Shown: piece after piece, positions 11,455-28,977 of the stretch
Position numbering within the stretch: the stretch's first letter is position 1
Layout of the letters: each line of letters starts with the position of its first letter
Assembly: GCF_001551835.1 (NCBI RefSeq)
Contig: NZ_LODL01000010.1
Location: forward strand, 164,705-228,704
Length of the DNA stretch: 64,000 nucleotides
Direction of reading: 5' to 3'
DNA from: Dechloromonas denitrificans
GTDB lineage: Bacteria; Pseudomonadota; Gammaproteobacteria; Burkholderiales; Rhodocyclaceae
Program-made: the position numbers and the translations under genes
The notes under the pieces: model-generated
The model's input: the letters and a program-made list of their open reading frames with translations, nothing else
What the model was told of the DNA's origin: nothing
Database searches by the model: none

Positions 11455-11832
11455 ATGAACGTCAAACAAGCCCTTTCCATCCCCGTTCTCTGTGCTGGTT
11501 TGGCCCTGTCAGGGCAGGTGTTGGCCGATTCGGTCATGCACAGCACGCCGGAGGGTACGACAAAATTCTACCCGGCGCATGATTCGGGCAGCAAATCCGC
11601 CGCGCAAGTGCAACAGGAACTCGATAACTTCAAACGCAATCCGGTTAGCGCTGATGGCCAGTATCGTTACGTGGGCGGTGACCAAGGCTGGGCGCTGATT
11701 CCGCACGAATATGCCTATCGCGATGGGAAATGGCAGCATGTCGACAAACTCCAGCACAACACCCCTGCACCATCCACGAAAATGACGCCTGAAGAACGGA
11801 AGCAACGCGATGCATTGTATCAGGGGGGTTAA
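11455..11832 (+). CDS. Small exported protein at head of czc operon
   Basis: 125 residues with a signal peptide (cleavage likely after SGQVLA) and a mature part containing SAAQVQQELDNFKRNPVS and YRYVGGDQGW. The central part resembles DUF4148-type periplasmic proteins, but this is a weak match made by eye. A strong ribosome site (AAGGAG) precedes the ATG. It is the first gene transcribed away from czcR, so it is likely metal-induced through CzcRS. A periplasmic metal-binding role is possible but not shown: no Cys and few His are present in the mature protein. Confidence 0.75.
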   Translation: MNVKQALSIPVLCAGLALSGQVLADSVMHSTPEGTTKFYPAHDSGSKSAAQVQQELDNFKRNPVSADGQYRYVGGDQGWALIPHEYAYRDGKWQHVDKLQHNTPAPSTKMTPEERKQRDALYQGG

Positions 11833-11968
11833 TACCGTCCTGAAGACAGATATGTTACCCATCAGACGATGACCAGAGAAACCCTGGTCATCGCCATCCC
11901 ATCTCACAGTGCAACGTCGTCTGCAGACCTGGTTTTGAACATACTTCTGTTCTGTTACTATTCACTTC

Positions 11969-12313
11969 ATGCGTCGCTGGCTATCCATGTTCCTGTTGAT
12001 TGTCTTGCCACTCCAGATTTCCTGGGCGGTGGCGGCGACCTATTGCCAGCACGAAACGGGCTCGACGCAGCACTTCGGTCATCACGACCATAAGCATCAC
12101 GCTGAAGATAACCAGAAACTGGCTAAAGCTTCTCCGTCCGATGTGGACAATGATTGTGCTGTCTGTCATGCAGGCTGTATTGCCGCATTGACCGCATTCA
12201 GCAGTTCGCTGCCCGAAATCGGTGTTTCTGCTGATCATTTTCGGACAGTTCCGTTTTTGACTTCTCCGCCCGGCGAGCAGCCCGAACGTCCCAACTGGTC
12301 CATTTCCGCCTGA
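11969..12313 (+). CDS. czcI: CzcI-family periplasmic protein
   Basis: 114 residues with an N-terminal signal peptide, a His-rich stretch (HFGHHDHKHHAEDNQ) and the cysteine pair in DCAVCHAGC. Size, signal, His/Cys pattern and position directly before czcC match the CzcI group of Cupriavidus-type czc operons, which are described as regulatory or metal-binding accessories of the CzcCBA pump. Confidence 0.82.
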   Translation: MRRWLSMFLLIVLPLQISWAVAATYCQHETGSTQHFGHHDHKHHAEDNQKLAKASPSDVDNDCAVCHAGCIAALTAFSSSLPEIGVSADHFRTVPFLTSPPGEQPERPNWSISA

Positions 12314-12438
12314 TCGGCGGGGCTGGGACATTTTCCCAAACCTGTTTGCTGCGGCCTGAGCCGCGCGCTGTGCCATTTCTGCTTGCCGGATGGCGCCCCG
12401 CCGATTCCCCAACGTGTATTTCATCACTGGAGAATCGG

Positions 12439-13761: not shown

Positions 13762-13770
13762 GAGCCAGTC

Positions 13771-15375
13771 GTGAAAATCAATTTTAACAAGAGCACCTTC
13801 AATCTCACCAAAAAACAAGGGACTGCCATTGCTTTAATCCTGGCGACAGGAATTGTTGCTGGCACCTGGATACTGGGAAGCAGTACCTCGAAGCCGGATG
13901 GAGAACCGCATGAGCACTCCAGCCACGCTGAAACCAAGGGACATACCGATGTCGAGCATCATGGCAGCAAAGCCGGTGATGGACACGACCATGCCAAGGA
14001 ACACGCCGATTTGGAGCATCATGAGGATGCACCGAAGTCGGGGCCGCATGGAGGCAGGCTTTTTACCGAGGATGGTTTTGGCTTGGAGTTGCTGCTGTCC
14101 GAAGATGGCGGCGAGCCGACTTTCCGTGTCTGGTTGTTCCAGCAAGACAAGCCCCTCGCGCCAAGCGCGGCCAAAGTCTCGATCACGCTGACGCGACCAG
14201 GGGGAGAGAAGCAGGAAATTCTCTTTGCCGCCGAGAAGGACTACCTGAAGAGCACAGGTCCGATTGCAGAACCCCACGTATTCGAAGCGGCGATCACGGC
14301 GCGTCTGGGCGATACCCCCTTCCTGTTCATCGATACGCGAGAAGAAGGAAAAATCGAACTGACGGACGAGCAAGTCAAGGCTGCCGCCATCGGCATCCAG
14401 AAGGCCACGCCAGCCAAAATCAAAACCGCCGCGCAACTACCCGGCGAAATACGCTTCAACGAAGACCGCACCGCGCATGTCGTGCCTCGTCTTGCCGGTG
14501 TCGTCGAGAGTGTTCCCGCCAATTTGGGCCAGACGGTCAAGCGCGGCCAGGTTCTGGCAGTAATCGCAAGTACCGGCCTTTCCGAGCAACGTAGCGAACT
14601 GCTGGCGGCACAAAGGCGCCTTTCGCTGGCCAAATCGACCTACGAGCGCGAGAAGAAGCTCTGGGAAGAAAAAATTTCTGCTGAACAGGACTACCTACAA
14701 GCCCAACAGACTTTAAGGGAGGCTGAAATCGCCGTTGCCAACAGTCAGCAAAAGCTGGTTGCACTCGGAACGAGCGCTACGGTTTCGGGTAGTCTCAATC
14801 GCTACGAAATCCGCGCACCTTTCGATGGCATGGTTGTTGAGAAACACATCGCGCTCGGTGAGGCAGTCAAAGAAGATGCCAGTATATTTACGATTTCCGA
14901 CTTGTCTTCCGTATGGGCCGAGATTGTCGTTCCCGCCAAGGATTTGAACATCATTCGGGTGGGTGAAAAGGTTGTTGTTAAGGCAACTGCCTTCGACTCG
15001 AAAGCCGAAGGCAGTATCTCTTACGTGGGGGCATTGCTTGGGCAGGATACGCGCACGGCCAAAGCACGGGTCACCTTGGCCAATCCGAAGATGGCCTGGC
15101 GTCCTGGCCTGTTCGTGAATATCGAAGTTGTTTCCGGCGAAGCCGAGGTTCCCGTCAGTGTGCTTACCGAAGCTATCCAAACGATCGGCGACAAGAGCAT
15201 CGTTTTCATCAAGGTGCCGGACGGCTTCGTTGCGCAACCGGTAGCACTGGGGCGTTCCGATGGGAAATACATCGAAGTGGTGAGTGGAATGAAAGCCGGA
15301 ACCCCTTACGCAGCCTCGGGCAGCTTCGTCCTGAAGTCGGAACTCGGCAAGGGTAGTGCCGAGCACAGCCACTAA
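13771..15375 (+). CDS. czcB: Periplasmic adaptor of the Czc pump with His-rich head
   Basis: 534 residues beginning with GTG behind AGGAG. An N-terminal membrane anchor (TAIALILATGIVAGTWILG) is followed by a His/Asp-rich region at residues about 45-95, then an HGG-containing domain (GPHGGRLFTEDGF), and the barrel-sandwich, alpha-hairpin and beta-barrel domains of RND adaptors (VPRLAGVVESVPANLGQTVK, EIRAPFDGMV). It links CzcA to CzcC and probably binds Zn, Cd or Co in the periplasm. The metal-binding head has a stand-alone relative at 20170-20595 in the same transposon. Confidence 0.94.
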   Translation: MKINFNKSTFNLTKKQGTAIALILATGIVAGTWILGSSTSKPDGEPHEHSSHAETKGHTDVEHHGSKAGDGHDHAKEHADLEHHEDAPKSGPHGGRLFTEDGFGLELLLSEDGGEPTFRVWLFQQDKPLAPSAAKVSITLTRPGGEKQEILFAAEKDYLKSTGPIAEPHVFEAAITARLGDTPFLFIDTREEGKIELTDEQVKAAAIGIQKATPAKIKTAAQLPGEIRFNEDRTAHVVPRLAGVVESVPANLGQTVKRGQVLAVIASTGLSEQRSELLAAQRRLSLAKSTYEREKKLWEEKISAEQDYLQAQQTLREAEIAVANSQQKLVALGTSATVSGSLNRYEIRAPFDGMVVEKHIALGEAVKEDASIFTISDLSSVWAEIVVPAKDLNIIRVGEKVVVKATAFDSKAEGSISYVGALLGQDTRTAKARVTLANPKMAWRPGLFVNIEVVSGEAEVPVSVLTEAIQTIGDKSIVFIKVPDGFVAQPVALGRSDGKYIEVVSGMKAGTPYAASGSFVLKSELGKGSAEHSH

Positions 15376-15391
15376 GGCGAGGGAGAACAAC

Positions 15392-18300
15392 ATGTTTGAA
15401 CGCATCATTCGCCTTGCCATTGAGCACCGCTGGCTGGTCTTGCTGGCCGTGCTTGGCATGGCCGGCCTGGGCATCTATAACTACCAGCGCCTGCCGATCG
15501 ACGCGGTTCCTGATATCACGAATGTCCAGGTGCAGATCAACACGGCTGCACCGGGTTATTCGCCGCTGGAAGTCGAGCAGCGGGTGACTTATCCGGTCGA
15601 GACCGTCATGGCCGGTCTGCCACATCTGGAACAGACACGCTCGCTGTCGCGCTACGGTCTGTCTCAAGTTACGGTGATTTTCAAGGATGGAACGGACATC
15701 TATTTTGCCCGCCAGCTAGTCAATCAGCGGATTCAGGAAGCCAAGGAAAAACTCCCTGCTGGAATAGCGCCGGCAATGGGGCCGATCTCTACCGGACTGG
15801 GAGAGATCTATCTCTGGACGGTTGAAGCAGAAGACGGTGCTAAAAAACCGGATGGCACTCCCTATACGCCGACCGATCTACGCGAGATTCAAGATTGGAT
15901 CATTAAGCCGCAATTGCGCAACGTGACGGGCGTGACTGAGATTAACTCGATCGGTGGCTTCGCCAAAGAGTATCAGGTCGCACCCAGCCCGGAAAAGCTG
16001 GCTTCCTACGGTCTAACACTTCAGGACGTGGTAATCGCCATAGACCGCAACAACAGTAACGTTGGAGCAGGATATATTGAGAAGCGCGGCGAACAGTATC
16101 TTATTCGTGCCCCAGGCCAAGTGCGCAGCATAGAGGATATTCGAAACGTCATCCTGGGCAATGTCCAAGGCGTGCCGATCCGTATCCGCGACGTGGCGGA
16201 GGTCGGCATCGGTCGTGAGCTACGTACTGGCGCCGCCACCGATAACGGGCGTGAAGTCGTTCTGGGTACAGTGTTCATGTTGATCGGTGAGAACAGTCGT
16301 ACCGTTTCGCGTGCGGTGGACCAGAAAATGGCCGAAATCAACCGCAATCTGCCAGAAGGAATCAAAGCGGTGACCGTCTATGACCGCACTGTCCTGGTGG
16401 ACAAAGCGATCAATACCGTAAAGAAGAACCTTCTGGAAGGAGCGATCCTGGTCATCGTCATTCTCTTCCTATTTCTCGGCAACATGCGGGCGGCTGTAAT
16501 TACCGCCATGGTGATCCCGCTCTCCATGCTTTTCACCTTTTCAGGAATGGTGACCTACCAGATTAGCGCCAATCTGATGAGCCTCGGTGCTCTCGACTTC
16601 GGGATCATCATCGATGGTGCCGTCGTCATCGTAGAGAACTGTGTTCGCCGTTTGGCCCATGCCCAGGCGCATCACGGGCGACCATTGACCCGGACCGAGC
16701 GTTTTCACGAGGTCTTTGCTGCTTCCAAAGAGGCTCGCCGAGCGCTGCTATTCGGTCAACTCATCATCATGATCGTCTATCTGCCGATCTTCGCGCTCAC
16801 CGGTGTTGAAGGAAAAATGTTCCACCCCATGGCGTTCACCGTGGTCACCGCGCTCGTAGGTGCCATGATCCTCTCCGTCACTTTCATCCCCGCTGCCGTC
16901 GCACTGTTTATTGGTAAAAAAGTGGACGAAAAGGAAAACTTCCTGATGCGGGCAGCCAAGCGCTGGTATGAGCCGGTTCTCGCTGGCGTCATGGCGAACA
17001 AACCGGTCGTACTGGTCTTTACGACGGTCGTGGTTCTTCTCTCAGGCTTGGTCGCAACGCGCATGGGGAGCGAATTCGTGCCGAGTTTGAACGAAGGAGA
17101 CTTCGCGATTCAGGCACTGCGTATTCCTGGAACCAGCCTCTCGCAGTCAGTAGCCATGCAGCAACAGTTGGAACAGCGGCTAAAAGCGGAGCATCCGGAA
17201 ATCGACAGAATTTTTGCGAGAACAGGAACGGCTGAAATCGCCTCAGATCCGATGCCACCCAATATTTCGGATGGCTACATCATGCTGAAACCTGAAACGG
17301 ATTGGCCTGAGCCACGGAAATCACGGGACGAACTGCTGGCTGCTATTCAAAAGACCGTTGGAAAAATGCCGGGGAATACCTACGAGTTTTCCCAGCCGAT
17401 CCAGTTGCGTTTCAATGAGCTGATCTCGGGGGTACGCAGCGATGTCGCCATCAAGATATTCGGTGACGACATGGATGTGATGAACGATACGGCCAGCAAG
17501 ATTTCTGCTGTATTGGAGAAAATCCCCGGCGCTTCCGAGGTCAAGATCGAGCAGACGACGGGCTTGCCCATGCTGACCGTGAATATCGATCGGGAGAAAA
17601 CGGCTCGATATGGACTCAATATTGGTGACGTTCAGGATGCAATTTCGACAGCGATTGGTGGTCGAGAGGCTGGAACCATGTTTGAAGGTGACCGCCGCTT
17701 CGATATTGTCGTACGTTTGCCGGATAACCTGCGCTCGGATCTCGAATCGCTGAAGCGTTTGCCGATCGCTTTGCCCAAAGTAACGACAGGCAACGGGGGG
17801 GATGTACGTACGACTTATATTCCTCTTGGCGAAGTGGCCAGCCTGGAGATCGCTCCTGGACCGAACCAAGTCAGCCGGGAAAACGGTAAGCGTCGCGTGG
17901 TCGTCAGTGCGAACGTTCGAGGACGAGATATTGGCTCCTTCGTTGGCGAGGCGCAGACCCGTCTGTCCGAGGTCAAGATTCCGACCGGCTACTGGACAGC
18001 GTGGGGAGGCACCTTCGAACAACTGGAGTCGGCCTCCAACCGTCTCAAGATCGTAGTTCCTGTTGCCTTGCTGTTAGTCTTCACGCTGCTGTTCGCCATG
18101 TTCGGCAACGTGAAGGATGGGCTACTAGTGTTTACCGGCATTCCGTTCGCGTTGACGGGCGGTGTCGTTGCGCTTTGGCTGAGAGACATTCCGCTCTCGA
18201 TTTCAGCCGGCATCGGTTTCATCGCCTTGTCCGGCGTGGCGGTGCTGAACGGTCTGGTGATGATTTCCTTCATCCGTAATTTGCGTGAAGAAGGACGTTC

Positions 18301-18574
18301 CCTTGATGACGCGATTCACGAAGGGGCGCTGACTCGATTGCGTCCTGTACTAATGACGGCATTGGTCGCCTCGCTCGGGTTTGTCCCTATGGCAATAGCA
18401 ACAGGCACTGGAGCGGAAGTCCAACGCCCGCTTGCTACCGTGGTGATTGGCGGAATCCTGTCATCGACGGCGCTGACGCTTCTCGTGTTGCCGCTGCTAT
18501 ACCGCCTTGCTCACGGCAAAGATGCCGATGAGGAGGACTTCACGAAATCAACAGACCAGCCATCTGAGGCCTAG
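15392..18574 (+). CDS. czcA: Heavy-metal RND transporter CzcA
   Basis: 1,060 residues of an inner-membrane RND pump driven by proton influx. TM4 carries LDFGIIIDGAVVIVEN, placing Asp402, Asp408 and Glu415 at the positions known for proton transfer in CzcA. The two large periplasmic loops and twelve membrane helices are as expected. The start at 15392 (MFERIIRLAIEH) has GGGAGAA upstream; an upstream ATG in the end of czcB is rejected. The DFG-x3-DG-x6-E signature is that of the Zn/Co/Cd group rather than the Cu/Ag CusA group. Confidence 0.96.
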   Translation: MFERIIRLAIEHRWLVLLAVLGMAGLGIYNYQRLPIDAVPDITNVQVQINTAAPGYSPLEVEQRVTYPVETVMAGLPHLEQTRSLSRYGLSQVTVIFKDGTDIYFARQLVNQRIQEAKEKLPAGIAPAMGPISTGLGEIYLWTVEAEDGAKKPDGTPYTPTDLREIQDWIIKPQLRNVTGVTEINSIGGFAKEYQVAPSPEKLASYGLTLQDVVIAIDRNNSNVGAGYIEKRGEQYLIRAPGQVRSIEDIRNVILGNVQGVPIRIRDVAEVGIGRELRTGAATDNGREVVLGTVFMLIGENSRTVSRAVDQKMAEINRNLPEGIKAVTVYDRTVLVDKAINTVKKNLLEGAILVIVILFLFLGNMRAAVITAMVIPLSMLFTFSGMVTYQISANLMSLGALDFGIIIDGAVVIVENCVRRLAHAQAHHGRPLTRTERFHEVFAASKEARRALLFGQLIIMIVYLPIFALTGVEGKMFHPMAFTVVTALVGAMILSVTFIPAAVALFIGKKVDEKENFLMRAAKRWYEPVLAGVMANKPVVLVFTTVVVLLSGLVATRMGSEFVPSLNEGDFAIQALRIPGTSLSQSVAMQQQLEQRLKAEHPEIDRIFARTGTAEIASDPMPPNISDGYIMLKPETDWPEPRKSRDELLAAIQKTVGKMPGNTYEFSQPIQLRFNELISGVRSDVAIKIFGDDMDVMNDTASKISAVLEKIPGASEVKIEQTTGLPMLTVNIDREKTARYGLNIGDVQDAISTAIGGREAGTMFEGDRRFDIVVRLPDNLRSDLESLKRLPIALPKVTTGNGGDVRTTYIPLGEVASLEIAPGPNQVSRENGKRRVVVSANVRGRDIGSFVGEAQTRLSEVKIPTGYWTAWGGTFEQLESASNRLKIVVPVALLLVFTLLFAMFGNVKDGLLVFTGIPFALTGGVVALWLRDIPLSISAGIGFIALSGVAVLNGLVMISFIRNLREEGRSLDDAIHEGALTRLRPVLMTALVASLGFVPMAIATGTGAEVQRPLATVVIGGILSSTALTLLVLPLLYRLAHGKDADEEDFTKSTDQPSEA

Positions 18575-18660
18575 CGTTTTCCGTTCGTGACCGGGGGCTT
18601 AATGCCCGATCGGCATAAGCCGTCGGTCACTCTTTCATCTACTCAACAACGGAGGCTGTT

Positions 18661-18966
18661 ATGGGATTTTTTGAAAAACTATTGCGAGGAGTCGCCGGTT
18701 CGCATGGCGGAGATCATCATGGCCGTGATCGGAACAGCGGGCATCATGGCTGGGGAAATAGTTATCCCTCAAATTCAGCGCTCCCCACCAATAGCACTAC
18801 CGGTGGCCGCCCATGCCCGAAGTGCGGCTCTGCGACCAATCTTGGGGGACGCTACTGCACCCAATGTGGCGCAGCCTTGGTGCCCGGCAATTGTGTGGAC
18901 TGCAATGCGAACCTCGCCCCGGGCACTAAGTTTTGCCCGAATTGCGGCAAGGCGCAGCAGACCTGA
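18661..18966 (+). CDS. Small double zinc-ribbon protein
   Basis: 101 residues: a His/Gly-rich head (HGGDHHGRDRNSGHHGWG) followed by two tandem zinc ribbons with CPKCG/CTQCG and CVDCN/CPNCG. It lies between czcA and the czcD pair in the same orientation. A zinc-handling role, as buffer or sensor in the cytoplasm, is suggested by the eight cysteines and the context. No signal peptide is visible, so it is likely cytoplasmic. Confidence 0.8.
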   Translation: MGFFEKLLRGVAGSHGGDHHGRDRNSGHHGWGNSYPSNSALPTNSTTGGRPCPKCGSATNLGGRYCTQCGAALVPGNCVDCNANLAPGTKFCPNCGKAQQT

Positions 18967-18984
18967 CCTTGGTGCCGTCATCTC

Positions 18985-19200
18985 ATGTTTGAACACTTGA
19001 TCCACAGCCACCTTGAATTTCAGCTCCTCATGCTCACTCTGGGGCTGATGCTGACATTTCTGGCGCTTTACGGATGGGTTTGCTGGTGGGAAGGCAGGCG
19101 CGGCAAGGTACAAAAATACTCAAAAAGCCTTCAGCGTCGTCTCCAGACGCCGAAGCAAAAAATTAAGCGATGCAACAACGATAAAGGAGGGGCCGCATGA
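18985..19200 (+). CDS. Small single-span membrane protein before czcD
   Basis: 71 residues with one hydrophobic helix (about 13-35, LLMLTLGLMLTFLALYGWV) and a Lys/Arg-rich cytoplasmic tail. The stop overlaps the czcD start (ATGA), so the two are translationally coupled and the protein may assist or regulate the transporter. AAAGGAGG for czcD lies within the last codons. No family recognised. Confidence 0.7.
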   Translation: MFEHLIHSHLEFQLLMLTLGLMLTFLALYGWVCWWEGRRGKVQKYSKSLQRRLQTPKQKIKRCNNDKGGAA

Positions 19201-20141
19201 GTGCGAGCCATGCACACGGAATCCCAAGCACCGACAACGAACGTGCCCTGCGTATTGCCCTGGCACTGACCGGCAGTTTCTTGATTGCCGAAGTCATTGG
19301 CGGCGTACTGACCGGCAGCTTAGCTCTCATCTCGGATGCCGCGCACATGTTGACCGATACTGCCGCACTCGCCATCGCATTGGCGGCGATCCGCATTGCC
19401 CGGCGCCCGGCCGATCGCCGGCGAACCTATGGCTACCACCGCTTTGAGATTCTGGCGGCCGCCTTCAATGCCTTGCTGCTGTTTGCCGTGGCGCTCTACA
19501 TCCTGGTTGAGGCTTACCGACGATTCACCTCCCCGCCCGAAATCCATTCGGTTGGGATGCTCGTGGTCGCCAGTATCGGCCTCATCGTCAATCTGATCAG
19601 CATCCGCCTACTGAGTGGGGGGCAGTCAGATAGCCTCAACGTGAAGGGCGCTTATCTCGAAGTGTGGAGCGACCTTCTGGGGTCGATCGGCGTGATCGTG
19701 GGCGCGGTGGTGATTCAGCTAACCGGCTGGTCTTGGGTAGATCCGCTTGTGGCTGTAGCCATTGGCCTCTGGGTTTTGCCACGCACCTGGATCTTACTGA
19801 AGGACAGTCTGAACATCCTGCTCGAAGGCGTGCCCGAGGGCATCGACTTAGGAGATGTAGAGCAGGCCATGCTAGCCGTGCCAGGCGTACTCAGCATCCA
19901 TGATCTGCATCTGTGGTCGCTAACGACCGGCAAAACCAGCCTGACAGCGCATGTGGTTTACGACCAGACCTACTCCCCCGAGGAAGCTTTGATGCCCGCC
20001 TTAGAGACGGTGTTGGCCAACCGCTTCAAGGTGGTCCACACGACGCTGCAGTGCGAAACAAAACCCTGTGCGCACCAACCGGAAGCTTGCACCACCGTCA
20101 GTGGCACATCCGAGCACGACGATAAGCCAAATTTTCATTAA
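19197..20141 (+). CDS. czcD: Cation diffusion facilitator, Zn/Cd/Co exporter
   Basis: 314 residues. Six membrane helices with the metal-site motif SDAAHMLTDTAAL in TM2 and EVWSDLLGSIGV in TM5, then a cytoplasmic C-terminal domain containing IHDLHLWSLTTG. This is the ZnT/CzcD branch, antiporting Zn or Cd for protons from cytoplasm to periplasm. The C-terminal tail is Cys/His-rich (CETKPCAHQPEAC). It supplements the trans-envelope CzcCBA pump in the same cluster. Confidence 0.95.
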   Translation: MSASHAHGIPSTDNERALRIALALTGSFLIAEVIGGVLTGSLALISDAAHMLTDTAALAIALAAIRIARRPADRRRTYGYHRFEILAAAFNALLLFAVALYILVEAYRRFTSPPEIHSVGMLVVASIGLIVNLISIRLLSGGQSDSLNVKGAYLEVWSDLLGSIGVIVGAVVIQLTGWSWVDPLVAVAIGLWVLPRTWILLKDSLNILLEGVPEGIDLGDVEQAMLAVPGVLSIHDLHLWSLTTGKTSLTAHVVYDQTYSPEEALMPALETVLANRFKVVHTTLQCETKPCAHQPEACTTVSGTSEHDDKPNFH

Positions 20142-20169
20142 CCGATTTATCAACCGACATGGAGCTCTC

Positions 20170-20595
20170 ATGAAACCTTCCACGGCACTCTCTGCTTTAC
20201 TCTTCGCTTGCTTCGTCAATCTGGCATCCGCTGCGGACGACCATAAGGGCCATGCCCACAACGACAAACCGGGCCAGCCCCATAGCCATGACGCCAAGCC
20301 GCAGCATGGTGGGGTCGTATCGGTAATCAAGGACATCAACTACGAGCTGGTGGCGAAGGCTGATTCCCTGACGCTCTACGTGAACGATCACGATCAGCCT
20401 GTCGATACCCGAAATGCGTCGGCTACCGTAACGCTCCTGTCTGCATCAGACAAGACCGAATCCAACTTGCTGCCAGCCGGAGGTAACCAGTTGCGTGCCC
20501 AAGGAGCCTTCAAGATCCAAGCCGGCACAAAGGCTGTCGCCATAGTCAAATTCGGCGACAAGCCCGGCCAGAGCGTCCGTTTCGTCCTGAAATAG
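20170..20595 (+). CDS. Periplasmic His-rich protein related to the CzcB head
   Basis: 141 residues with a signal peptide ending near LASAAD, then HKGHAHNDKPGQPHSHD and a beta-rich domain starting QHGGVVSVIKDINYELV. The HGG-x-ELxx-L arrangement parallels the domain after the His-rich head of CzcB in this operon (PHGGRLFTEDGFGLELLL). I infer a stand-alone metal-binding domain that captures or delivers Zn/Cd in the periplasm. It is the last gene of the czc run. Confidence 0.78.
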   Translation: MKPSTALSALLFACFVNLASAADDHKGHAHNDKPGQPHSHDAKPQHGGVVSVIKDINYELVAKADSLTLYVNDHDQPVDTRNASATVTLLSASDKTESNLLPAGGNQLRAQGAFKIQAGTKAVAIVKFGDKPGQSVRFVLK

Positions 20596-21022
20596 GCGAG
20601 ATGCTCGCCTCACCGCCCATTCGTTCACTGACAGCCCAGGCAAGTGGGCAGTGCAATGCGTGGGCGGTAAGTTCCCACAGATTGTTTTTCGCACGAATAC
20701 GGAGACGGCTGGCTTCTTCAACGGGGCCCACCTTAGCAAGCTTCGCCGAGGCCTTTCCTCCTACGACCCTTGGTTTCGAGGAATGCGCCGGGACATTGAT
20801 TCAGGAGTCGCGAGTAATCTGCTCCCCCCAGGAAATTGGACACAGCCGGAAGTAAACCTTCCATTTCGTACCATCCCTACATGGTTTTTCCGCTCCGTCG
20901 CTCATCACAACAAATAATCAACCATTATCATGTCTTAGAATTTGTATTTTTGCTGCCTTGAATTTCGTAAAATTAGTATGTAATATCATATTACGTAATA
21001 CGGTACGAAATTCGAGGATGCC
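20596..21022. other. 427-bp gap with low-GC right half
   Basis: No convincing gene on either strand. A short perfect hairpin (GGCGAG-atg-CTCGCC, 20595-20609) right after the last czc gene may help end transcription but lacks a T-run. Open frames over 20,446-20,917 have no recognisable motifs and could be debris of an older insertion. From about 20,930 the DNA becomes AT-rich and contains the palindromes described separately. Confidence 0.5.
20956..21017. promoter_or_regulatory. Nested palindromes before the KfrA-like gene: operator or recombination site
   Basis: Outer arms CCTTGAATTTCGTA (20956-20969) and TACGAAATTCGAGG (21004-21017) are inverted with 13 of 14 matches. Between them lie GTAATAT-C-ATATTAC (20980-20994, perfect) and the 12-bp palindrome TATTACGTAATA (20989-21000). 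The KfrA-like gene starts five bases later. Such symmetry fits autoregulation by the KfrA-like protein, or a cointegrate-resolution core for the tyrosine recombinase. Confidence 0.7.
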
Positions 21023-22099
21023 ATGGCCAGAGCCGGAATCTACAAATCAGAAGTCGTCAGAGCGCGTAACAACCTGTTGGCGGTGGGGCGCTATCCATCG
21101 ATCGACGCCATCCGTGGTGAACTGGGCAATACGGGTTCGAAAGGTACGATTCACCGCTATCTAAAGGAAATCGAGGAAGAGGAAGGCGGGAATGCTGGCG
21201 CCCAAGTTGCGGTCAGCGAAGCCATCCAAGATCTGGCTGCCAGGCTCGCCGAACGCTTACATGAGGAAGCCGATCAGCGCTTGGCGGCGCTGACCGACAA
21301 GCACAAGGCGGAAATTGCGGCGCTAAACGACATCAGCACCGCATTACGTAATGAAGTGGAATCTTTCCGCAGCCAGTCTGAACGCCAGGCCTTGGAGTTG
21401 GCGGCAGAGAAAGCAGCCCACACCGAAATCCTGAGTACGCTTCAGGAAGAGAGAATCGTTCAGGCGCAATTGACTCAGCGTATCCAGGACATGGAGGGGC
21501 AACAGGCAAAGGATGAAGCGCACCGTGTATCGCTGGAAGAAAAGCACCAGCATGCCAGAGAGGCACTGGAGCATTTCCGCACGGCGGCGAAGGAACAACG
21601 GGAGCAGGACCAGCGGCAGTTCGAGCAGCAGATTCAGTTCTTGCAGGGCGAACTGCGTGCAGCCAAGGAAACGGTGAACGCGAAACAGCAGGAACTCATC
21701 CATAGCCATCAGGATAATGCCCGTCTTTCCAGCGAGCAGGCCCATCTTCGTAGCGAGTTACATCGTTTGGAATCTGAGATTCGTCCGCTGCGTACAGCCC
21801 GGGAACATCTGGCTGTTTCCGAACTGAAGAATCAACAACAGGAAGAGCGTCTGGCCCAGCGTGCCGCACGCATTGATGAATTACTCGTGGAAAACCAAAG
21901 CTACGCAGAAAAGTTGCAGGATGCGAATCAAGCCGGGCTCCGCCTGGAGACAGAGTTATCCGCAGCAAAGGCGGTGTTGGCCAGCCATGAACAAATCCTG
22001 CAAAGAATCACCATCAGTCAGGCACCAGCAACAAAAGGCAGCGGGCACCGCAAGGAAAGTGCTGAAAACCAAGAGTCGCTTTTTGACCCGGAGAAATAG
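21023..22099 (+). CDS. KfrA-like DNA-binding coiled-coil protein (TnpT-like)
   Basis: 358 residues. The N-terminal ~60 residues (VVRARNNLLAVGRYPSIDAI, GSKGTIHRYLKEIE) match the KfrA_N plasmid DNA-binding domain; residues about 65-330 are a near-continuous coiled coil rich in Glu, Gln, Ala and Leu. KfrA proteins bind their own promoter and affect plasmid stability. In Tn4651-type transposons a coiled-coil helper, TnpT, works with tyrosine recombinase TnpS at a palindromic core. Location just inside the right terminal repeat and next to nested palindromes makes a TnpT-like role attractive, though here the recombinase gene is at the other end of the element. Confidence 0.8.
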   Translation: MARAGIYKSEVVRARNNLLAVGRYPSIDAIRGELGNTGSKGTIHRYLKEIEEEEGGNAGAQVAVSEAIQDLAARLAERLHEEADQRLAALTDKHKAEIAALNDISTALRNEVESFRSQSERQALELAAEKAAHTEILSTLQEERIVQAQLTQRIQDMEGQQAKDEAHRVSLEEKHQHAREALEHFRTAAKEQREQDQRQFEQQIQFLQGELRAAKETVNAKQQELIHSHQDNARLSSEQAHLRSELHRLESEIRPLRTAREHLAVSELKNQQQEERLAQRAARIDELLVENQSYAEKLQDANQAGLRLETELSAAKAVLASHEQILQRITISQAPATKGSGHRKESAENQESLFDPEK

Positions 22100-22165
22100 T
22101 CAGGGTAATCAGCCGTCGAAGTAGGTGACACCAGATTCATACGCCAAATCCGTCGGTTAGCGGAG

Positions 22166-22202
22166 TTTTTCGAGGATTTCACATGAATCCCGGCCGACCC
22201 TC
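22166..22202 (-). repeat. Right terminal inverted repeat of the transposon
   Basis: Read on the minus strand it begins GAGGGTCGGCCGGGA and ends GAAATCCTCGAAAAA, matching the left end at 33 of 37 positions. Confidence 0.92.
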
Positions 22203-22348: not shown

Positions 22349-22885
22349 TTAGCCCGCGGCAATCACGGCGAGGCGGGCAACCTCAGTGTCAATCGCGGCA
22401 ATGTCGGTGACGACACAGGCGCGCTGGGCTTGGGTTTCCAGCTTTTTGGCTTGCTGGGCGGAATTGCCGTTTTCCCAGCCGACCATGAGGCCAAGCTGCT
22501 CGTCAATGCTGACGATGAGCGCCTGTTGCGAAACCTTCGACTTGTTCAGTCGAACGATCTGCGACTCGGCCCAAGACTTCATGTCGTTGGGCACGGTGGA
22601 GGCCAGAAGCTCGCCGGTATTGATCTCGACGGTATAGACGCCGTTACCCTTTTCGGCAGCTTTGGCGGCGAACTTCAGATACGAATCCACATCGCTGAAG
22701 GTTTTGATCTTGCCGGAATCGCTGGCCACGTCATAGACGACCGCGCCGACCTGAACAGTACCGACGAAGCGCAGACCCTTGTCGCCCGGCAAGGCGTTGA
22801 TCTTGAGCACAGCCACCGCGCCCGGCGTGTTGGTCTTTTCGACATTGAACAGACGCGAAATTTCACGAAGCGTTTTGCGAGACAT
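22349..22885 (-). CDS. Unassigned prophage protein between rep and lysis genes
   Basis: 178 residues beginning MSRKTLREISRLFNVEK, with a beta-rich N-terminal half (AVAVLKINAL, LRFVGTVQVGAVVYDVA) and a helical C-terminal half. The start at 22885 follows a GGGGA ribosome site; a longer frame from 22951 is rejected because it runs through the AT-rich palindrome at 22906-22929. I do not recognise the family. Its place after the replication gene and before lysis could suit a single-strand-binding protein or a major virion protein. Confidence 0.65.
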   Translation of the reverse strand: MSRKTLREISRLFNVEKTNTPGAVAVLKINALPGDKGLRFVGTVQVGAVVYDVASDSGKIKTFSDVDSYLKFAAKAAEKGNGVYTVEINTGELLASTVPNDMKSWAESQIVRLNKSKVSQQALIVSIDEQLGLMVGWENGNSAQQAKKLETQAQRACVVTDIAAIDTEVARLAVIAAG

Positions 22886-22905
22886 AGTTTTCCCCTTTGG
22901 AAAAG

Positions 22906-22929
22906 TTAATTTATGTGCCCATAAATTAA
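22906..22929. promoter_or_regulatory. AT-rich perfect inverted repeat in prophage
   Basis: TTAATTTATG-TGCC-CATAAATTAA, 10-bp arms with a 4-base loop, in an otherwise GC-rich prophage. It lies in the only sizeable gap of the rep-to-lysis run (22,886-22,981), just before the ribosome site of the next gene. It may be an operator, an attenuating hairpin, or part of the replication origin nicked by the HUH protein. Confidence 0.65.
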
Positions 22930-22981
22930 TTTTATGGACTGGCTCGCACACTACACAAAATCCAAATCGCCCACAAGCCCC

Positions 22982-24601
22982 CTACAAATTCGCCACCGCC
23001 AAGGCCGCGAAATCGTGCCCCGTACAGTTATTGACACAAGACCGAGGAACCCCAAAACCCCCTTTTGCCGACGCCCCGGCCCATTCAATGCGCCAAACCT
23101 TCTCTGGCAGCAAGGCGCGCCGCGCCCCTTCCGCAATGCCGACAATCCGCGCCGCCGCTTCATCCCCGTAGGCCGTCACCCGGTCAGCCGCCCGATAAAT
23201 CAGGGAGAAGCCGCCGGCCAGCGCCGCCCGCCAGTATCCGGCAAAGTCGGAATCATCCGCCGCCGAGCGCGCCCGCTCTAACATGCTGCCAACGATCGCT
23301 ATTGGCCCGCGCATCCGGCGCAAAACCCGCCAGCCCGAAATCGCCGGGCAACCGAAGAACTGGAATTGCCGAATCGACCACTTCGACGCCCACGCATCGA
23401 CCCGCTTGACGCTGGCGGAAATCTTCTTTTGGCCTTCAGGATCTATATCCCCCTCAAGCCCTTTGCCGTCGATATTCTTGCTCACATACTTGGCCGCATA
23501 GGCCGCGCCCTTGGTGCCCGCTTTGGCCGGCAGCCACTTAAACCGATGCTCCGCCGCCCCATCTTCCCAACCCTTTTCGCGCAAGGCGTAACGCTTCATC
23601 AAATAGCGCGCCAACCGCAAATCTTCCGCCGGCCCATACACGATCATGTGCCAATGGGGACATCCATCATGGTGCGGCTCGACTGTTCGCAGCCCGAAAA
23701 CGGCCAGCCCGCGCCGATGCCACGCCGCCCGCGCCCGCGCATACAGTTTCGAGAGGTAAATCTGCCCATCCCTTGGGGTTTTGTCGGTATAGGCCGGATT
23801 CGGCACGGCCACCGGCCCGGCCATCTTCATTGCGTGGTATTCGCTGGGCGCGGTCACCGTCCAGAACTCGCAAGCGTCGCCGTTTTCACTAGCAATGGCA
23901 TCGCAGCCCTTAACCCGCACCATGAGTTCAGCCCGCTTCACTTCGGGATTGGCAATCGAGCCGGCCACCACCTCCGCCAAACTCAACGACTCGCCCGACG
24001 CATCGCAGATCACATACGCCGCCTCAATCGACCGCGCATTTCGCCGCCGCTGGGCCAAGCGCATCTCGACGGCATCTTGAGAGGCATACGGCCACAAGCC
24101 CCGCTTGACGACGCCCGCCGTGATTGCCGCCGTTTCACAGCGCCGCCCATGCGCCCGGCGCAGACGACGCAGCCACCAACGCGGGCACAGCATCCGGCGA
24201 ATGGCCGGCATGTCGCCCCCACCATCCGGCGGCAACACGCCCCAGCGCCCGCACAGCCCCTCAAGCAACGCCCGCGACTTGACCACGCCCACCGCACAGA
24301 CCACGCCGCCAATGGCCGACGCATCCGCCGCCGCCTCTTTCGCCGCCTTCCTCAAATCTTCATCCGACGCCGCCAGCGACAAGCGCCCCGCCGCACTGGC
24401 CGTCACCGCCAACACATAGCGGTTTGCGTCCGGCACGGTCAGCCCGCCGCGCCGCTTATGCTCCCGGCGCACAAGGTTTGCCCAGTGCGACGGCAGCAAA
24501 TCCAGCCGCCCGGCCAACCACTTCTCAGACCGCTTCTTTTCCGCCGCCTCAATCCCCTTCGCAATCGGCGCGAACTCCCGGCACGACATGCGCCGGCTCA
24601 T
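22982..24601 (-). CDS. HUH replication endonuclease, P2 GpA type
   Basis: 539 residues. Contains the HUH metal-binding motif in PHHDGCPHWHMIVYG (about residues 308-322) and the catalytic Tyr/Lys motif in AAYAAKYVSKNID (about 366-378), the pattern of Phage_GPA (PF05840) proteins that nick one strand at the origin to start rolling-circle replication. The start at 24601 overlaps the upstream gene (ATGA) and removes 27 residues of implausible extension. GpA-type proteins occur in P2-like tailed phages and in tail-less circular-genome phages such as PM2. No capsid, portal or terminase gene of a P2-type phage is visible nearby. Confidence 0.88.
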   Translation of the reverse strand: MSRRMSCREFAPIAKGIEAAEKKRSEKWLAGRLDLLPSHWANLVRREHKRRGGLTVPDANRYVLAVTASAAGRLSLAASDEDLRKAAKEAAADASAIGGVVCAVGVVKSRALLEGLCGRWGVLPPDGGGDMPAIRRMLCPRWWLRRLRRAHGRRCETAAITAGVVKRGLWPYASQDAVEMRLAQRRRNARSIEAAYVICDASGESLSLAEVVAGSIANPEVKRAELMVRVKGCDAIASENGDACEFWTVTAPSEYHAMKMAGPVAVPNPAYTDKTPRDGQIYLSKLYARARAAWHRRGLAVFGLRTVEPHHDGCPHWHMIVYGPAEDLRLARYLMKRYALREKGWEDGAAEHRFKWLPAKAGTKGAAYAAKYVSKNIDGKGLEGDIDPEGQKKISASVKRVDAWASKWSIRQFQFFGCPAISGWRVLRRMRGPIAIVGSMLERARSAADDSDFAGYWRAALAGGFSLIYRAADRVTAYGDEAAARIVGIAEGARRALLPEKVWRIEWAGASAKGGFGVPRSCVNNCTGHDFAALAVANL

Positions 24602-24849
24602 TTCAACTTCTCCGCCCAGCCGCTGAAGCGCTTCAGCGCGCTCAACACCCGCCCGCGCAAATCCGCCCGCAGATCGCACCACGCCCGCCCCGCCAAGCGC
24701 CCCGCCGATTGCGCCGGCTCCCCAGCCATCGCCAGCAACACCCGGCGGTCACTTGTGGTCGCTTGTTCGTCCCACACCACGCGGAAAGGATCGCGCTCCC
24801 CGCCAAGGATCGCCCGGCACTCGACCAGCTTCAGACGGATGGCGCTCAT
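24598..24849 (-). CDS. Small prophage protein before rep
   Basis: 83 residues (MSAIRLKLVECRAILGGERD...), overlapping both neighbours by ATGA, so it is translated within the early operon. It is mostly helical and charged, without recognisable motif or membrane segment. Start at 24849 chosen because of the overlap with the upstream stop. Confidence 0.6.
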   Translation of the reverse strand: MSAIRLKLVECRAILGGERDPFRVVWDEQATTSDRRVLLAMAGEPAQSAGRLAGRAWCDLRADLRGRVLSALKRFSGWAEKLK

Positions 24850-25520
24850 TTGCCGAACCCCTTGCCCGGCGACCATTCCACCGGCCCAGCCACGGCCAGC
24901 CCCAGCGCCTCACCATCGCGCACCCCGGCCACCAGCCCGGCGAGGATCGAATCGCAGTAGCCGCACGGGCAAACATCGCCGCCGCACTCGCACGGAATCA
25001 TGCCGCTATCGTCCGCCTGCTGAATGCATTCATCGACCGTCAGCATGACCACCCTCAAGCAGTCATTGCACAGGCAAGGCATCTTGTCGCCACACCACCC
25101 CGCCGGGCTCATTTGCCACCCCGCTCGACGACCGTTTGCGGTGGCGCATCGCCACGAAACCACCACGGCGATAGATTGACGCACGAACCCGCCGGAATGC
25201 AGCCCGGCGCATCCATAAACGGCCCCCTCAGTAGTGCAAAGCTCATCAAAGGCCGGCGCATACAACCCGCGCCGATCCGAGAACAGCCCGAAGCCCGGCG
25301 CGCAATGCCGCCCGCCATCCGTCGCCAGAATCTCCGCCACAGTCATCGGATCACTATCCGTCACCAGATAGCCGCCGAAATCCTCCGCCAGCCGCGCATA
25401 CATCGCCTCGTTATGGCGCTCCGCCGCCAAATCACACGCGCTATGCAGCACCGCCCTCAACAAATCACAGGCGACCACATGCCCACGCGCCCGGCGTGAA
25501 TACTTGGAAATGACAAACAT
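24846..25520 (-). CDS. Cys-rich early prophage protein
   Basis: 224 residues, first gene transcribed away from the repressor. The N-terminal part (about 1-110) contains RHNEAMYARLAEDFGGYLV; the C-terminal part has many cysteines (CGDKMPCLCNDC, CECGGDVCPCGYC), suggesting bound zinc. An internal ATG at 25112 (MSPAGWCGDK) overlaps the stop of a second frame, 25109-25246, that also looks protein-like, so the region may encode two or three smaller overlapping genes rather than one protein. Function not recognised; early position suggests replication or host-takeover roles. Confidence 0.55.
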   Translation of the reverse strand: MFVISKYSRRARGHVVACDLLRAVLHSACDLAAERHNEAMYARLAEDFGGYLVTDSDPMTVAEILATDGGRHCAPGFGLFSDRRGLYAPAFDELCTTEGAVYGCAGLHSGGFVRQSIAVVVSWRCATANGRRAGWQMSPAGWCGDKMPCLCNDCLRVVMLTVDECIQQADDSGMIPCECGGDVCPCGYCDSILAGLVAGVRDGEALGLAVAGPVEWSPGKGFGK

Positions 25521-25576
25521 GGTTTAGCCCTCCGACCGGAGAGGCATAGAAAAAACTGATTGGCCCGTTTCAGGCG

Positions 25577-25595
25577 CGTCAACTACAACTTGACG
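25577..25595. promoter_or_regulatory. Candidate operator of the prophage repressor
   Basis: CGTCAA-CTACAAC-TTGACG, an inverted repeat with 6-bp arms in the divergent region between the early operon (start 25520) and the repressor (start 25674). A related TTGACAAGC lies 35 bases further on. Location between divergent genes is what one expects for a repressor-binding site. Confidence 0.5.
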
Positions 25596-25673
25596 AACAA
25601 GAGCCGTTTCCATTTGACAAGCATCACTTGCCGGCCAGCCGCTCACCCGCCGCCGCGCCTTTCGGATACCGCC

Positions 25674-26027
25674 ATGCAAAACGCCTTGATTGACCAGCTT
25701 GTCAAACGATTCCCCAGCGCCGCCCGATGCGCCGCCGCCCTTGGCATCACCCGCCAAGCTATGAATCAATCCATGAACAGAGGAACCCTGTCCAACGCCG
25801 CCGCCTTGCGCGCCGCCGCTTTGCTCAACCTCGACCCCGGTCAAGCCCTTCTGATTAACGCCACCTGCAAAGACATTACCGCGCCAGTAATCGACGCCTC
25901 CCCTTGCAGCACAAGCAACCCGGCCAATAATGCCCCGGGTAATACAAATTATGCGAACTGGCCGAAGGGTAGCCGCATTTGTGCGCAATGCACTAGCGCG
26001 CTATCAGATAAAATCCCATCCTTTTAA
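25674..26027 (+). CDS. YdaS/Cro-like phage repressor
   Basis: 117 residues; the first ~65 form a helix-turn-helix of the YdaS/Cro type (LVKRFPSAARCAAALGITRQ, AMNQSMNRG), which should bind operators in the divergent region upstream. The start at 25674 is preferred to a frame opening at 25560 because the extra residues are low-complexity and cross the operator. The last ~30 codons run through the dif-like site at 25932-25959, so the C-terminal tail is probably encoded by chromosomal DNA joined on integration. Confidence 0.72.
   Translation: MQNALIDQLVKRFPSAARCAAALGITRQAMNQSMNRGTLSNAAALRAAALLNLDPGQALLINATCKDITAPVIDASPCSTSNPANNAPGNTNYANWPKGSRICAQCTSALSDKIPSF
25932..25959 (-). other. dif-like hybrid attachment site (XerC arm perfect)
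   Basis: Read on the minus strand: XerC arm AGTTCGCATAA (25949-25959), centre TTTGTA, then TTACCCGGGGC where the XerD arm (TTATGTTAAAT in dif) should be. The XerC arm equals that of the Neisseria dif as I recall it. A conserved XerC arm joined to a foreign centre and degenerate XerD arm is the junction left by phages that integrate through XerC. The XerD-arm side faces the prophage and the XerC side faces the ftsK flank, as this model requires. Confidence 0.6.
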
Positions 26028-26088: not shown

Positions 26089-28977
26089 GTGAATCCCAAG
26101 CACAAGGCAACTCAGTACCCGGACTCTAGTGAAGAGAGCAATACACCGCTCGACGGTTTGGTAAGCAATCTGAGCAACGGGCTGACCCGGGTTGGGTCAG
26201 TCTTCAAGCAATTCTTCAATTCTCAACGACCGACCAGGGAGTTCGAGTCTTCGCTCGAGGGTGACCAGCCAGCCAGTGAGAACTCTAAAGCGGCAGCCGT
26301 TGTGCCCCCCCTCGTTACATCACAGTCTGCTCCGCCTACGCCGTCCAAGCGAAACAGCCCGGCAACGGCCGCTGACTTACGCCAACACCTTGCAGATGAT
26401 CACGCCTGGATTCGTCAGAATTTGGAGCGCCACTATCGCGGACGCCAACTACCGCCTGTAACTGAAAGACGCCCCGATGCCGAACCAATGGACGAGGCAG
26501 TAATTCGTGCCCGCCTCCTCAAAATCCACGGGGGCCACCTTCCTGGCAGGGCGGGACGGCAAACAACCAACATCGCTCAGGATGCTTCTCTCTCCGAGCA
26601 AGGCATAGCGTCAGCGCAAACAATTCGAATTCAGGCCCTTCGTGCGTTACAACCGGCAATGGCTAGCCCAGCCAAGCCGAGCTCACAGCTCTCATCCGAG
26701 TCCCAAGCCGCTCGCTCAGCCGGGACTGCCAAACGGATGCCACCGGTCACGACCTCAAAGCCTCGTGCCAGTCTGGTCAAACCGGTCCCCGCCAATTTGT
26801 GCAAACATACGATTCCCAAGGAAACGGGATCGTATGCACCAGAGTTTACGACCGAGAAACTGTCGAAAGCAGATGAAACAACGACTAATTTGTCCTTGCC
26901 TGGAGCACCGGTCGAAAATGTTGAAGTAATTGCGCCGGTGCCCGTTCCCCACGCGGTTTCATCAGCGGAGCAGTTTGTCACTCCAGCGCTGAAGGTTGCG
27001 GCCCCCATGCTTGTCGAGAACCAAGCATTAGTGGAGAGGAGAACTGCGCCGTCAAGCGATCAACTCTCGCCTACCAAGCGGCAACACAGTCCGCAAGCGC
27101 CAAGAAAGCCGATCTCGGCAAGTATTAGCGCCCCTGCTCGACCCAGATCGCCGATGCACGAACCGACAACGCTGCCGGAAGCCGCCTCTTCTGGCAAGGC
27201 AACGGGCAGCTCCGCATCAAGCAGCTCAGCACCCTCACCTGCTATTCAGGTCGAAGCAATACCCGCGATCACCTCATTGTCGGCCGAACAGGCGCCTGAA
27301 GCTTTTGATGAACAGCCGCTATTAGCGCCGGACATGGTCCAGATCCCGTTTGTCAAACCGCGCATTGTCATCCGGCCGACGATTTCAGTAGGAATGCTCG
27401 CTACTGCTTCAGTGCCAGAGTCAGACCTCGGCATCGTTCCAGAAAATGCAAGCCGCGATCTGTTGACCGATGAATTTGCGACATCTGCTGCCTTTGCGCC
27501 CCGCAACTGGGCAAACTATGCGCCCCCCCTGACCCTGCTGCAAGCACCGTCCGGGACGGAAACACCAGTTGACCAAGATGCACTGAACCAAAACGGCCGT
27601 CTGATCGAAGAACGGTTGGGCGAGTTTCGCGTTAAGGTCGCCGTTCGTGATGCCTGTGCCGGGCCGGTCATCACGCGTTATGAGGTCGAACCGGCCGTCG
27701 GCGTACGCGGTGCGCAGGTGGTCAATCTGATGAAGGATCTGGCGCGTGCCTTGAGTGTCACGTCGATTCGTGTGGTCGAGACCATCCCGGGCAAAACCTA
27801 TATGGGCCTGGAACTACCCAATGTGCAGCGCCAGATGATCCGCCTCTCGGAGGTTCTTTCCTCCGATGTCTTCCAGCATCACGCTTCCAAACTGGCGATG
27901 GCACTGGGGAAAGATATCACCGGCGAACCGGTCGTCGCCGACTTGGCCAAGGCGCCGCACATGCTGGTTGCCGGGACGACCGGCTCCGGCAAATCGGTCG
28001 GGGTCAATGCGATGATCCTTTCGCTGCTCTACCGTGCGACACCGGATGAAGTTCGTTTCGTGATGATCGACCCGAAAATGCTGGAACTTTCGGTTTATGA
28101 CGGCATTCCGCACTTGCTGGCGCCGGTCGTCACCGACATGAAACTGGCAGCCAATGCCTTGCACTGGTGTGTGACGGAAATGGAGCGCCGCTACCGCTTG
28201 ATGAGCATGCTCGGTGTGCGCAACCTTGCGGGCTTCAACCAGAAAATCCGCGAAGCGGAGGATGCCGGTCGCACAATCTATGATCCCGATCCGTTGGTTA
28301 CGGAAAGTCCGGTACCGCTGACGACATTGCCCTTTATTGTCGTCGTGGTCGATGAGTTTGCCGACCTCATGATGGTCGCCGGCAAGAAAATCGAGGAACT
28401 GATCGCTCGCCTTGCGCAGAAAGCCCGCGCGGCCGGCATCCACTTGATTCTCGCCACGCAACGCCCCTCGGTGGATGTCATCACGGGACTGATCAAAGCG
28501 AATATTCCGACACGGATTGCCTTCCAGGTCTCCTCCAAGGTCGACAGTCGGACCATCCTCGACCAAATGGGCGCTGAAACCCTGCTTGGTCAAGGGGACA
28601 TGCTTTACCTGCCGCCGGGTACGGGCTATCCGCAACGGGTGCACGGAGCCTTCGTCGCCGATGACGAGGTGCATGCGCTGGCTGAACACCTGAAACAATA
28701 CGGCGCTCCCGATTACATCGATGCCGTACTCGGCGCCCCGGATGGCAGCGAAGCGGAAGCTGGCGGTGCCAGCAATGTCGAGGAAAGCGACCCGCTTTAC
28801 GATCAGGCGGTGGCGATTGTCATCGAGTCACGCCGTGCCTCGATCTCGCTCGTCCAGCGCCATCTTCGCATTGGCTACAACCGCGCCGCCCGCCTGGTCG
28901 AGCAAATGGAAGTGGCCGGTCTCGTTAGCCCGATGGAAAGTAACGGTAGCCGAACCGTGCTCGTGCCGAGCCATTGA
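26089..28977 (+). CDS. ftsK: FtsK/SpoIIIE-type DNA translocase lacking membrane segments
   Basis: 962 residues from a GTG start. Residues 1 to ~485 are Ser/Pro/Ala-rich linker with no hydrophobic helix, unlike canonical FtsK, which begins with four membrane spans. The motor follows: alpha/beta domains with Walker [10 protein letters not shown] (about 629) and Walker [13 protein letters not shown] (about 752), then a winged-helix gamma domain (about 903-962, [20 protein letters not shown]), which in FtsK reads KOPS and activates XerD at dif. An in-frame TAG lies 12 bases before the GTG, so the N-terminus is not simply truncated by the prophage. Convergent with cysB. It may be a paralogue of the main FtsK. 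Confidence 0.88.

Follow-up and report, generated by a model that had tools for sequence, protein, structure and literature searches.

A prophage at dif in Dechloromonas denitrificans whose integration site is the hinge of its own regulator

Introduction

How does a small prophage come to end at a sequence resembling half of a chromosomal dif, and what becomes of the gene through which that end passes? The question is raised by a stretch of 64,000 nucleotides from Dechloromonas denitrificans (contig NZ_LODL01000010.1, positions 164,705 to 228,704, hereafter the window), for which a preliminary description, made from the letters alone, had proposed that a prophage entered at dif through the host recombinases XerC and XerD. 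The Xer system does its work at the terminus, towards the end of the cell cycle, and an element that relies on it has no control over the reaction that makes it a prophage. Here we follow the two ends of this element, its relatives and the gene that the ends share. Beyond the preliminary description, we find as the main result that integration takes place at the hinge of a regulator which the element itself encodes.

Results

The sequence read on the minus strand from 25959 to 25932, AGTTCGCATAA TTTGTA TTACCCGGGGC, is the one first reported:

25932..25959, minus strand: hybrid dif, with XerC arm AGTTCGCATAA, centre TTTGTA and a divergent XerD-side arm TTACCCGGGGC that comes from the element

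The 18-base core TTCGCATAATTTGTATTA occurs once in the window, where 1.8e-7 occurrences are expected under a first-order Markov model (0.015 for the 11-mer alone). The genome of the window, G000, is a draft of 41 contigs and 4.24 Mb with a single complete dif, GTTTCGCATAA TTTGTA TTATGTTAAAT, at G000:C35:2965-2992, and a search of the whole genome for a dif-like pattern with up to two mismatches matched only the hybrid site of the window and this one place on contig C35. The preliminary description thus had the site right but its centre wrong: TTTGTA, taken there for a non-dif centre, is the centre of the complete dif of G000 itself. Dif matches were obtained in 25 of the 36 same-genus genomes searched (G000 included), with TTTGTA as centre in 20, TTTGCA in three and TTTATA in two, so that TTTGTA is a common dif centre in the genus and a foreign origin of the centre is ruled out. 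The XerD arm is degenerate, as had been stated, with 3 of 11 positions equal to the G000 dif.

A complete dif had been predicted at the far end of the prophage, and C35 carries one, directly next to what by gene order is the other end of the element. A full dif elsewhere in the genome, which the preliminary description would have counted against integration, does exist, but it is this prophage's other end. On C35 the genes of the element are followed by the complete dif and then by a DUF1178 gene, the element lying on the XerC side of dif, as integration at dif requires, and DUF1178 on the XerD side. DUF1178 was found within the fetched stretch at 10 of 20 dif loci (20 genomes), and in each of the 10 beyond the XerD arm; the part of C35 that carries DUF1178 therefore belongs to the chromosome's XerD side. 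The two prophage ends of G000 are on different contigs (C10, which holds the window, and C35) and, judging from gene order and from the two halves of one gene across a discontinuous sequence, they appear to belong to the same element.

The left part of the prophage is cut off by the assembly, as a 10-N gap in C10 (G000:C10:164695-164704; L006 18696-18705), 26 kb away from the hybrid site, immediately precedes position 1 of the window. Across this gap the scaffold places erpA, not C35. In the six relatives in which both could be placed, proS, a gene close to erpA beyond the gap, is 1.0-2.2 Mb away from dif; we therefore doubt the erpA side as the neighbour of the prophage and consider this scaffold join probably wrong or arbitrary.

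Of 76 same-genus genomes, six, counting G000, have relatives of the replication initiator of the element (Rep, listed below), and in four of the six they belong to this element, the identity to the Rep of the window being 60% in G011, 52% in G088 and 51% in G097. In the other two genomes, G067 and G072, Rep is distant (33-36%) and the stretch that holds it has no dif-like site. The three related prophages each lie between two dif-like sites. In G088 (one contig) the hybrid site AGTTCGCATAATTTGTATTCGCC and a full dif are 9.5 kb apart in the same orientation; in G097 (one contig) the hybrid and the full site are 43.5 kb apart with a transposon-like stretch between them, and both carry the host's own centre TTGTTA. 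On the XerC flank of the G097 hybrid site (L129, about 12334-12400), 45 nt match the element's far end at 91%, probably a scar left at this dif by an earlier integration. In G011 (L127 1751-13350) the dif-like sites are 11.6 kb apart; att runs the opposite way with respect to the genes of the element, and the arm that differs is that of XerC. With the complete dif at the far end in G000, these three prophages support well the earlier claim that the prophage is integrated at dif.

A further relative, the 15.7-kb metagenomic contig IMGVR_UViG_3300025896_003560 (L211), holds two differing copies of the element head to tail. Aligned pieces of the copies are about 84-95% alike, and their att sites, each within an intact regulator ORF, lie 7.9 kb from one another. 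By an estimate from the Rep translations the contig ends about 70 bp short of circle closure, and it may be a mixed dimer circle or a head-to-tail array. Beyond the genus, the Rep of L039 and of L040 is 69 and 68% identical to that of the window; apart from these two, Rep identity there is 26-42%, and Rep was dropped as a family marker there as too broad. Three proteins of the metagenomic relatives, searched against viral contigs, found nothing beyond the query contigs L211/L212 and L039. The L211 regulator had no match in phage or plasmid collections, a 258-aa L211 protein none among phages and a 188-aa L211 protein none among plasmids.

The genes of the element in G000 are the following:

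1..388, minus strand: element gene cut by the 10-N gap, resembling L211:11626-12105 by eye
392..1186, minus strand: collagen/tail-collar fibre protein (PF07484, 1.4e-23; phrog_523)
1212..1709, minus strand: endolysin (PF00959, 7.3e-33; phrog_7)
1710..22202: Tn3-family transposon with metal-efflux genes, 20.5 kb, inserted at the start of the endolysin gene
4835..6118, minus strand: tyrosine recombinase (Phage_integrase family) belonging to the transposon, adjoining the transposase at 1829-4828
22349..22951, minus strand: gene after rep, its start (MSRKTLREISRLF..) like that of the L211 post-rep genes (MARKTLREISRLF..), judged by eye
22982..24682, minus strand: replication initiator of the GPA family, rep (Pfam PF05840, 2.5e-67; phrog_91, 5.8e-132)
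24846..25520, minus strand: gene upstream of rep, matched by no Pfam or PHROG family
25521..25673: intergenic stretch, delimited by ORF positions, that separates the regulator from the rep-side genes, which point the other way
25674..26027, plus strand: N-terminal HTH half of the regulator, 117 aa, reading through the hybrid site (..NTNYA..) with a tail from flanking DNA
C35:2588-2947, minus strand: C-terminal half of the regulator, adjoining the complete dif
L005 10-1173 (C35, at the contig start): 387-aa ORF in the element

Inward from the hybrid site the order is thus regulator (on the opposite strand), a gene, rep, a gene, the transposon, endolysin and fibre, and the part on C35 comprises the 387-aa ORF, a 270-aa protein and the C-terminal half of the regulator. 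Without the transposon the G000 pieces amount to about 8.5 kb plus the gap. The 387-aa ORF had no match in 75 other same-genus genomes, nor in Pfam, PHROGs or PADLOC, and the 270-aa protein has relatives in L040/L211, G088 and G011 at 26-38% identity. The stretch 25521..25673 is likely a regulatory region, and no convincing inverted (operator) repeats were seen in it.

The preliminary description had noted that no integrase is visible. A Phage_integrase-family gene does exist at 4835-6118, which corrects this remark, but it sits within the transposon and was rejected as a phage integrase for that reason. The 38-bp inverted repeats at the transposon ends are alike at 33 of 38 positions and are flanked on both sides by the 5-bp repeat CTCAT. 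The G097 copy of the element (L129, L262, L263) also holds transposase, recombinase and metal-efflux-like ORFs, those of recombinase and transposase sizes standing side by side in the same order.

Ten L211 proteins compared with PHROGs and Pfam gave two HU-like proteins, one fibre, one HTH protein and one match to phrog_12600, a PHROG without annotated function, and among them no capsid, terminase/packaging ATPase, contractile-tail or integrase gene was recognised. Seven G088 and three G011 proteins likewise gave no integrase, the sole match being again phrog_12600. We read the element, which is about 8-11.6 kb long in its relatives and lacks a recognised integrase, as a temperate phage of small size or a satellite of a phage.

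The hybrid site lies inside an open reading frame, and comparison of the elements shows its counterpart at the other end. In both L211 copies a single ORF runs through attP and encodes an N-terminal HTH, a linker including the att-encoded TNYA, and a C-terminal domain, whereas in each of the four prophages (G000, G088, G097 and G011) the HTH part and the C-terminal domain are separated and stand at opposite ends. The regulator with attP inside its ORF is therefore shortened by integration in 4 of 4 prophages and unsplit in 2 of 2 L211 copies. The distance from the HTH anchor to the site is 212 nt in G000 and G088, 173 in G097, 227 in G011 and 248 in both L211 copies, in every case 2 mod 3; that from the site to the C-terminal anchor is 142 nt in G000 and G097, 139 in G088, 196 in G011 and 145 in both L211 copies, in every case 1 mod 3. 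No stop codon lies between anchors and site in the four prophages, and the frame is kept in G011 despite its reversed att. As the lineages are related, these agreements are not independent.

The two L211 copies differ from each other by 22 synonymous and 12 non-synonymous codon changes in the C-terminal domain, by 13 and 15 in the HTH, by 2 and 15 in the linker before the site and by 1 and 9 in the stretch after it. The C-terminal domain is thus constrained, whereas the linker is free to change with only its frame kept, and since it evolves fast the coding signal around attP is the open frame and not conservation. The C-terminal domains of G011, G088 and G097 are 58-66% identical to that of G000. 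An ATG just before this domain in L211 (MEKIVHV, MQKIVHV) and in G004 (MGKVHS), a genome with a C-terminal domain at a contig start, makes a separate start possible there; in G000, G088 and G097 the stretch from the site to the conserved SPRF motif holds no ATG, save one in G000 inside the domain.

In the prophages the HTH product ends soon after the site with residues supplied by the flank (..PSF in G000, ..VLP in G088, ..LRR in G097, ..ERS in G011). The C-terminal domain ends in -RLAA in G000, G088 and G097, in -AIAA and -TKAA in the L211 copies, in -SAK in G011 and in -KAM in G004. Five of seven C-terminal domains (three with -LAA) and none of the four shortened products thus end in -AA, against a background of 15 of 423 ORFs of at least 150 aa, a rough set with some spurious ORFs.

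A structure was modelled with AlphaFold2 from 11 natural rows (two whole proteins, four HTH parts and five C-terminal parts), with a mean pLDDT of 76.2; it replaced a single-sequence model that was poor (mean pLDDT 44.8). Helices are predicted at 3-62 and 130-208, mostly at pLDDT >90, and the stretch 77-125, below 50, is predicted to be disordered and would include the residues encoded by attP (about 101-105). Among the 11 rows, 5 matched phrog_638 'transcriptional regulator' (best 1.3e-6), 4 matched phrog_1746 'transcriptional repressor' (best 0.0038) and one matched Pfam HTH_3 (0.0013), the HTH matches being weak for some rows and the family tables carrying no row assignment. No convincing PHROGs or Pfam family match among these rows was attributable to the C-terminal domain, and a PDB sequence search gave one match (E 0.13), to a LacI-family regulator over the HTH part.

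The C-terminal domain occurs in 6 of 76 same-genus genomes: the four with prophages, G004, where the att site is out of view, and G035, where what is left of it is decayed and interrupted by two stops. When 399 genomes of the order were searched with a profile of the regulator, matches came from G000 and, in another family, from G101 (C-terminal domain only, E 3.7e-10). In G101 (L273 4479-4866) the domain stands beside a perfect dif with a different centre, at 190 nt (1 mod 3), and neither the HTH part nor the rest of the element was found in the fetched 16 kb, so that by its sequence context we read this domain at dif as a scar.

Discussion

The anatomy of the sites bears on how the element entered. 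In G000, G088 and G097 the XerC-arm core and the whole six-base centre are the same at both ends, and the XerD arm matches dif at only 3, 2 and 4 of 11 positions; the L211 copies carry centre TTTGTA and match the G000 dif, taken as reference, at 5 and 6 of 11. This is the arrangement described for TLCphi, where XerC arm and centre are nearly as in dif, the XerD arm is divergent and XerD exchanges strands first and XerC second (PMC4246890), and for the gonococcal genetic island (GGI), whose cited account gives the same site anatomy with XerD exchange before XerC (PMC5357621). CTXphi and VGJphi, as presented in the same sources, differ from dif on the XerD side of the centre (PMC4246890, PMC5357621). 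The TLC-class anatomy is found in G000, G088, G097 and L211 and not in G011. A further mark of the TLC class is a XerD-first exchange that does not depend on FtsK. From the absence of a recognised element integrase and from the sites themselves, we infer that host XerC/XerD are the catalysts.

Of the preliminary interpretation, integration at dif is upheld but the XerC-first order is not, as all 6 bp of the centre match dif and only the XerD arm diverges. An exchange begun by XerC, in the style of CTXphi or VGJphi, would find some favour in that the conserved arm is the XerC arm and that a XerC-only exchange also yields a hybrid with the flank's XerC arm; yet the six centre bases are equal at both sites in three prophages, even in the variant TTGTTA, and full centre homology with a divergent XerD arm is tied to TLCphi and GGI in the cited accounts (PMC4246890, PMC5357621). 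We therefore consider XerC-first exchange unlikely and, by analogy of site anatomy, prefer a TLC-like, XerD-first route, which G011 does not fit. That the hybrid site is an artefact of assembly, or of accidental recombination between short similar sequences, might be suspected from the draft state of G000, the 10-N gap at window position 1 and the one scaffold join that is probably wrong by the distance of proS from dif. Against this, the single-contig genomes G088 and G097 repeat the anatomy of G000, the gap is far from the hybrid site and the 18-base core is hardly expected by chance, so that this explanation is most improbable. Taken together, integration at dif through Xer with the splitting of a real gene is in our view likely.

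Based on these data we propose that the element would replicate by means of its GPA-type initiator and integrate at the host dif through XerC/XerD in the manner of TLCphi and GGI, which would flank it by a hybrid site on one side and by an intact dif on the opposite side. With attP in the linker between HTH and C-terminal domain of a regulator oriented away from rep, presumably a usual place for a repressor, integration would cut the regulator, so that the prophage would encode the HTH with a short flank-derived tail and the C-terminal domain would be stranded at the other end. The short HTH protein may repress rep, the full-length form being unstable or differently active. The split itself is read from the sequence and its regulatory effect we infer. 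We put forward only tentatively, as a plausible reading, that this is a lysogeny switch, in which integration by XerCD removes a destabilising or modulating C-terminal domain from a repressor and turns replication off. As the C-terminal domain is large and conserved, it probably does more than carry a tag.

Two other readings accept the integration and differ on the gene. The switch could run the opposite way, the full-length protein being the active regulator or a XafT-like Xer accessory factor that integration inactivates or modifies, for example locking the integrated state or freeing rep. A C-terminal domain that is well conserved relative to G000, with synonymous exceeding non-synonymous changes, points to a function in the full-length form, as such a reading would have it; but in all four prophages the HTH half at the prophage end still has an open frame and an intact upstream region, and its phrog matches are transcriptional regulators, and we regard this reading as somewhat unlikely. 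Alternatively, the integration could be a plain Xer event in which the ORF through attP is incidental, HTH and C-terminal domain being separate genes whose frames meet by chance and whose split has no regulatory meaning. The fast evolution of the linker around attP and the internal ATG before the C-terminal domain in L211 and G004 speak for it, whereas the frame kept in every prophage and both L211 copies through differing linker lengths and a reversed att, the frame kept on the C-terminal side in G101, and the lack of an ATG from site to SPRF in G000, G088 and G097 (bar the one inside the G000 domain) speak against it, making incidental reading-through rather improbable.

Among known systems, the TLCphi satellite phage of Vibrio cholerae resembles the element in lying at dif with a near-identical XerC site and centre and a divergent XerD site, and in having an autonomous replication gene and no recognised integrase; unlike the element, which has endolysin and fibre genes, it is carried by filamentous-phage proteins, and attP in a regulator ORF is not mentioned in the passages cited (PMC4246890, PMC5357621). 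GGI, like the element here, lies between a modified and an intact dif, but is described as a 57-kb island with a type IV secretion system, the present element being small and phage-like (PMC5357621, PMC9765430). Jorvik/PM2-like phages that use XerCD are likewise small, circular and without integrase, with a dif-like attP and an HTH gene next to it; in Jorvik, according to the account cited, a non-coding region separates attP from that gene, and capsid protein and packaging ATPase are recognised, neither of which was recognised here (PMC10589892). P2-like phages (Peduoviridae) share the GPA-family initiator (36-39% identity in the best 30 of 324 phage records), whereas the element is far smaller and no terminase, capsid, sheath or integrase gene was recognised in it.

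The closest parallel for the split gene is mycobacteriophage BPs, in which, in the account cited, attP lies inside the repressor gene and integration removes an ssrA-like tag to give a stable, active repressor (PMC4557955). Common to both is an attP in the gene of a DNA-binding regulator whose C-terminus is shortened by integration. The -AA endings here are reminiscent of the BPs tag, and a C-terminal tag may also be part of what is lost, a likeness that is suggestive only. BPs is described as using its own integrase and losing 33 residues (PMC4557955), whereas in the present case dif serves as the site and integration cuts away an entire conserved domain, about 125 residues long. No phage-encoded integrase that could form part of a switch of the BPs type was recognised in the 10 L211, seven G088 and three G011 proteins. 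A literature search found no work joining 'XerCD' with 'integration-dependent immunity', nor, by titles and the starts of abstracts, a description of a repressor gene that carries a Xer attP.

With attP inside the regulator, the regulatory state would directly report integration and be coupled to the Xer system. If this is true, integration-dependent immunity would have arisen also outside the actinobacteriophages, with a host recombinase as its trigger, and would be a separate origin of the mycobacteriophage logic.

The DNA beside the element has features of its own. The preliminary description spoke of an ftsK flank, and an FtsK gene does stand beside the site, but it is the second FtsK gene of G000:

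26089..28977 of the window: second FtsK gene, lying 130 bp away from the hybrid site and encoding 962 aa that comprise alpha, motor and gamma domains

FtsK matches number two in G000 and one in each of 11 relatives searched, and similarity to G016 and G031 begins only after the second FtsK gene, at a LysR gene. The idea that this accessory FtsK is part of a plasmid-borne island was dropped, as its first 470 residues gave no plasmid match. On C35, a metal-dependent phosphohydrolase and a small terminase subunit (L005 8969-11652) lie about 6-9 kb past dif on the XerD side and are perhaps another prophage. Further into the window, 41078-48455 holds T2SSE secretion ATPase and secretin genes, an ordinary type II/IV secretion cluster.
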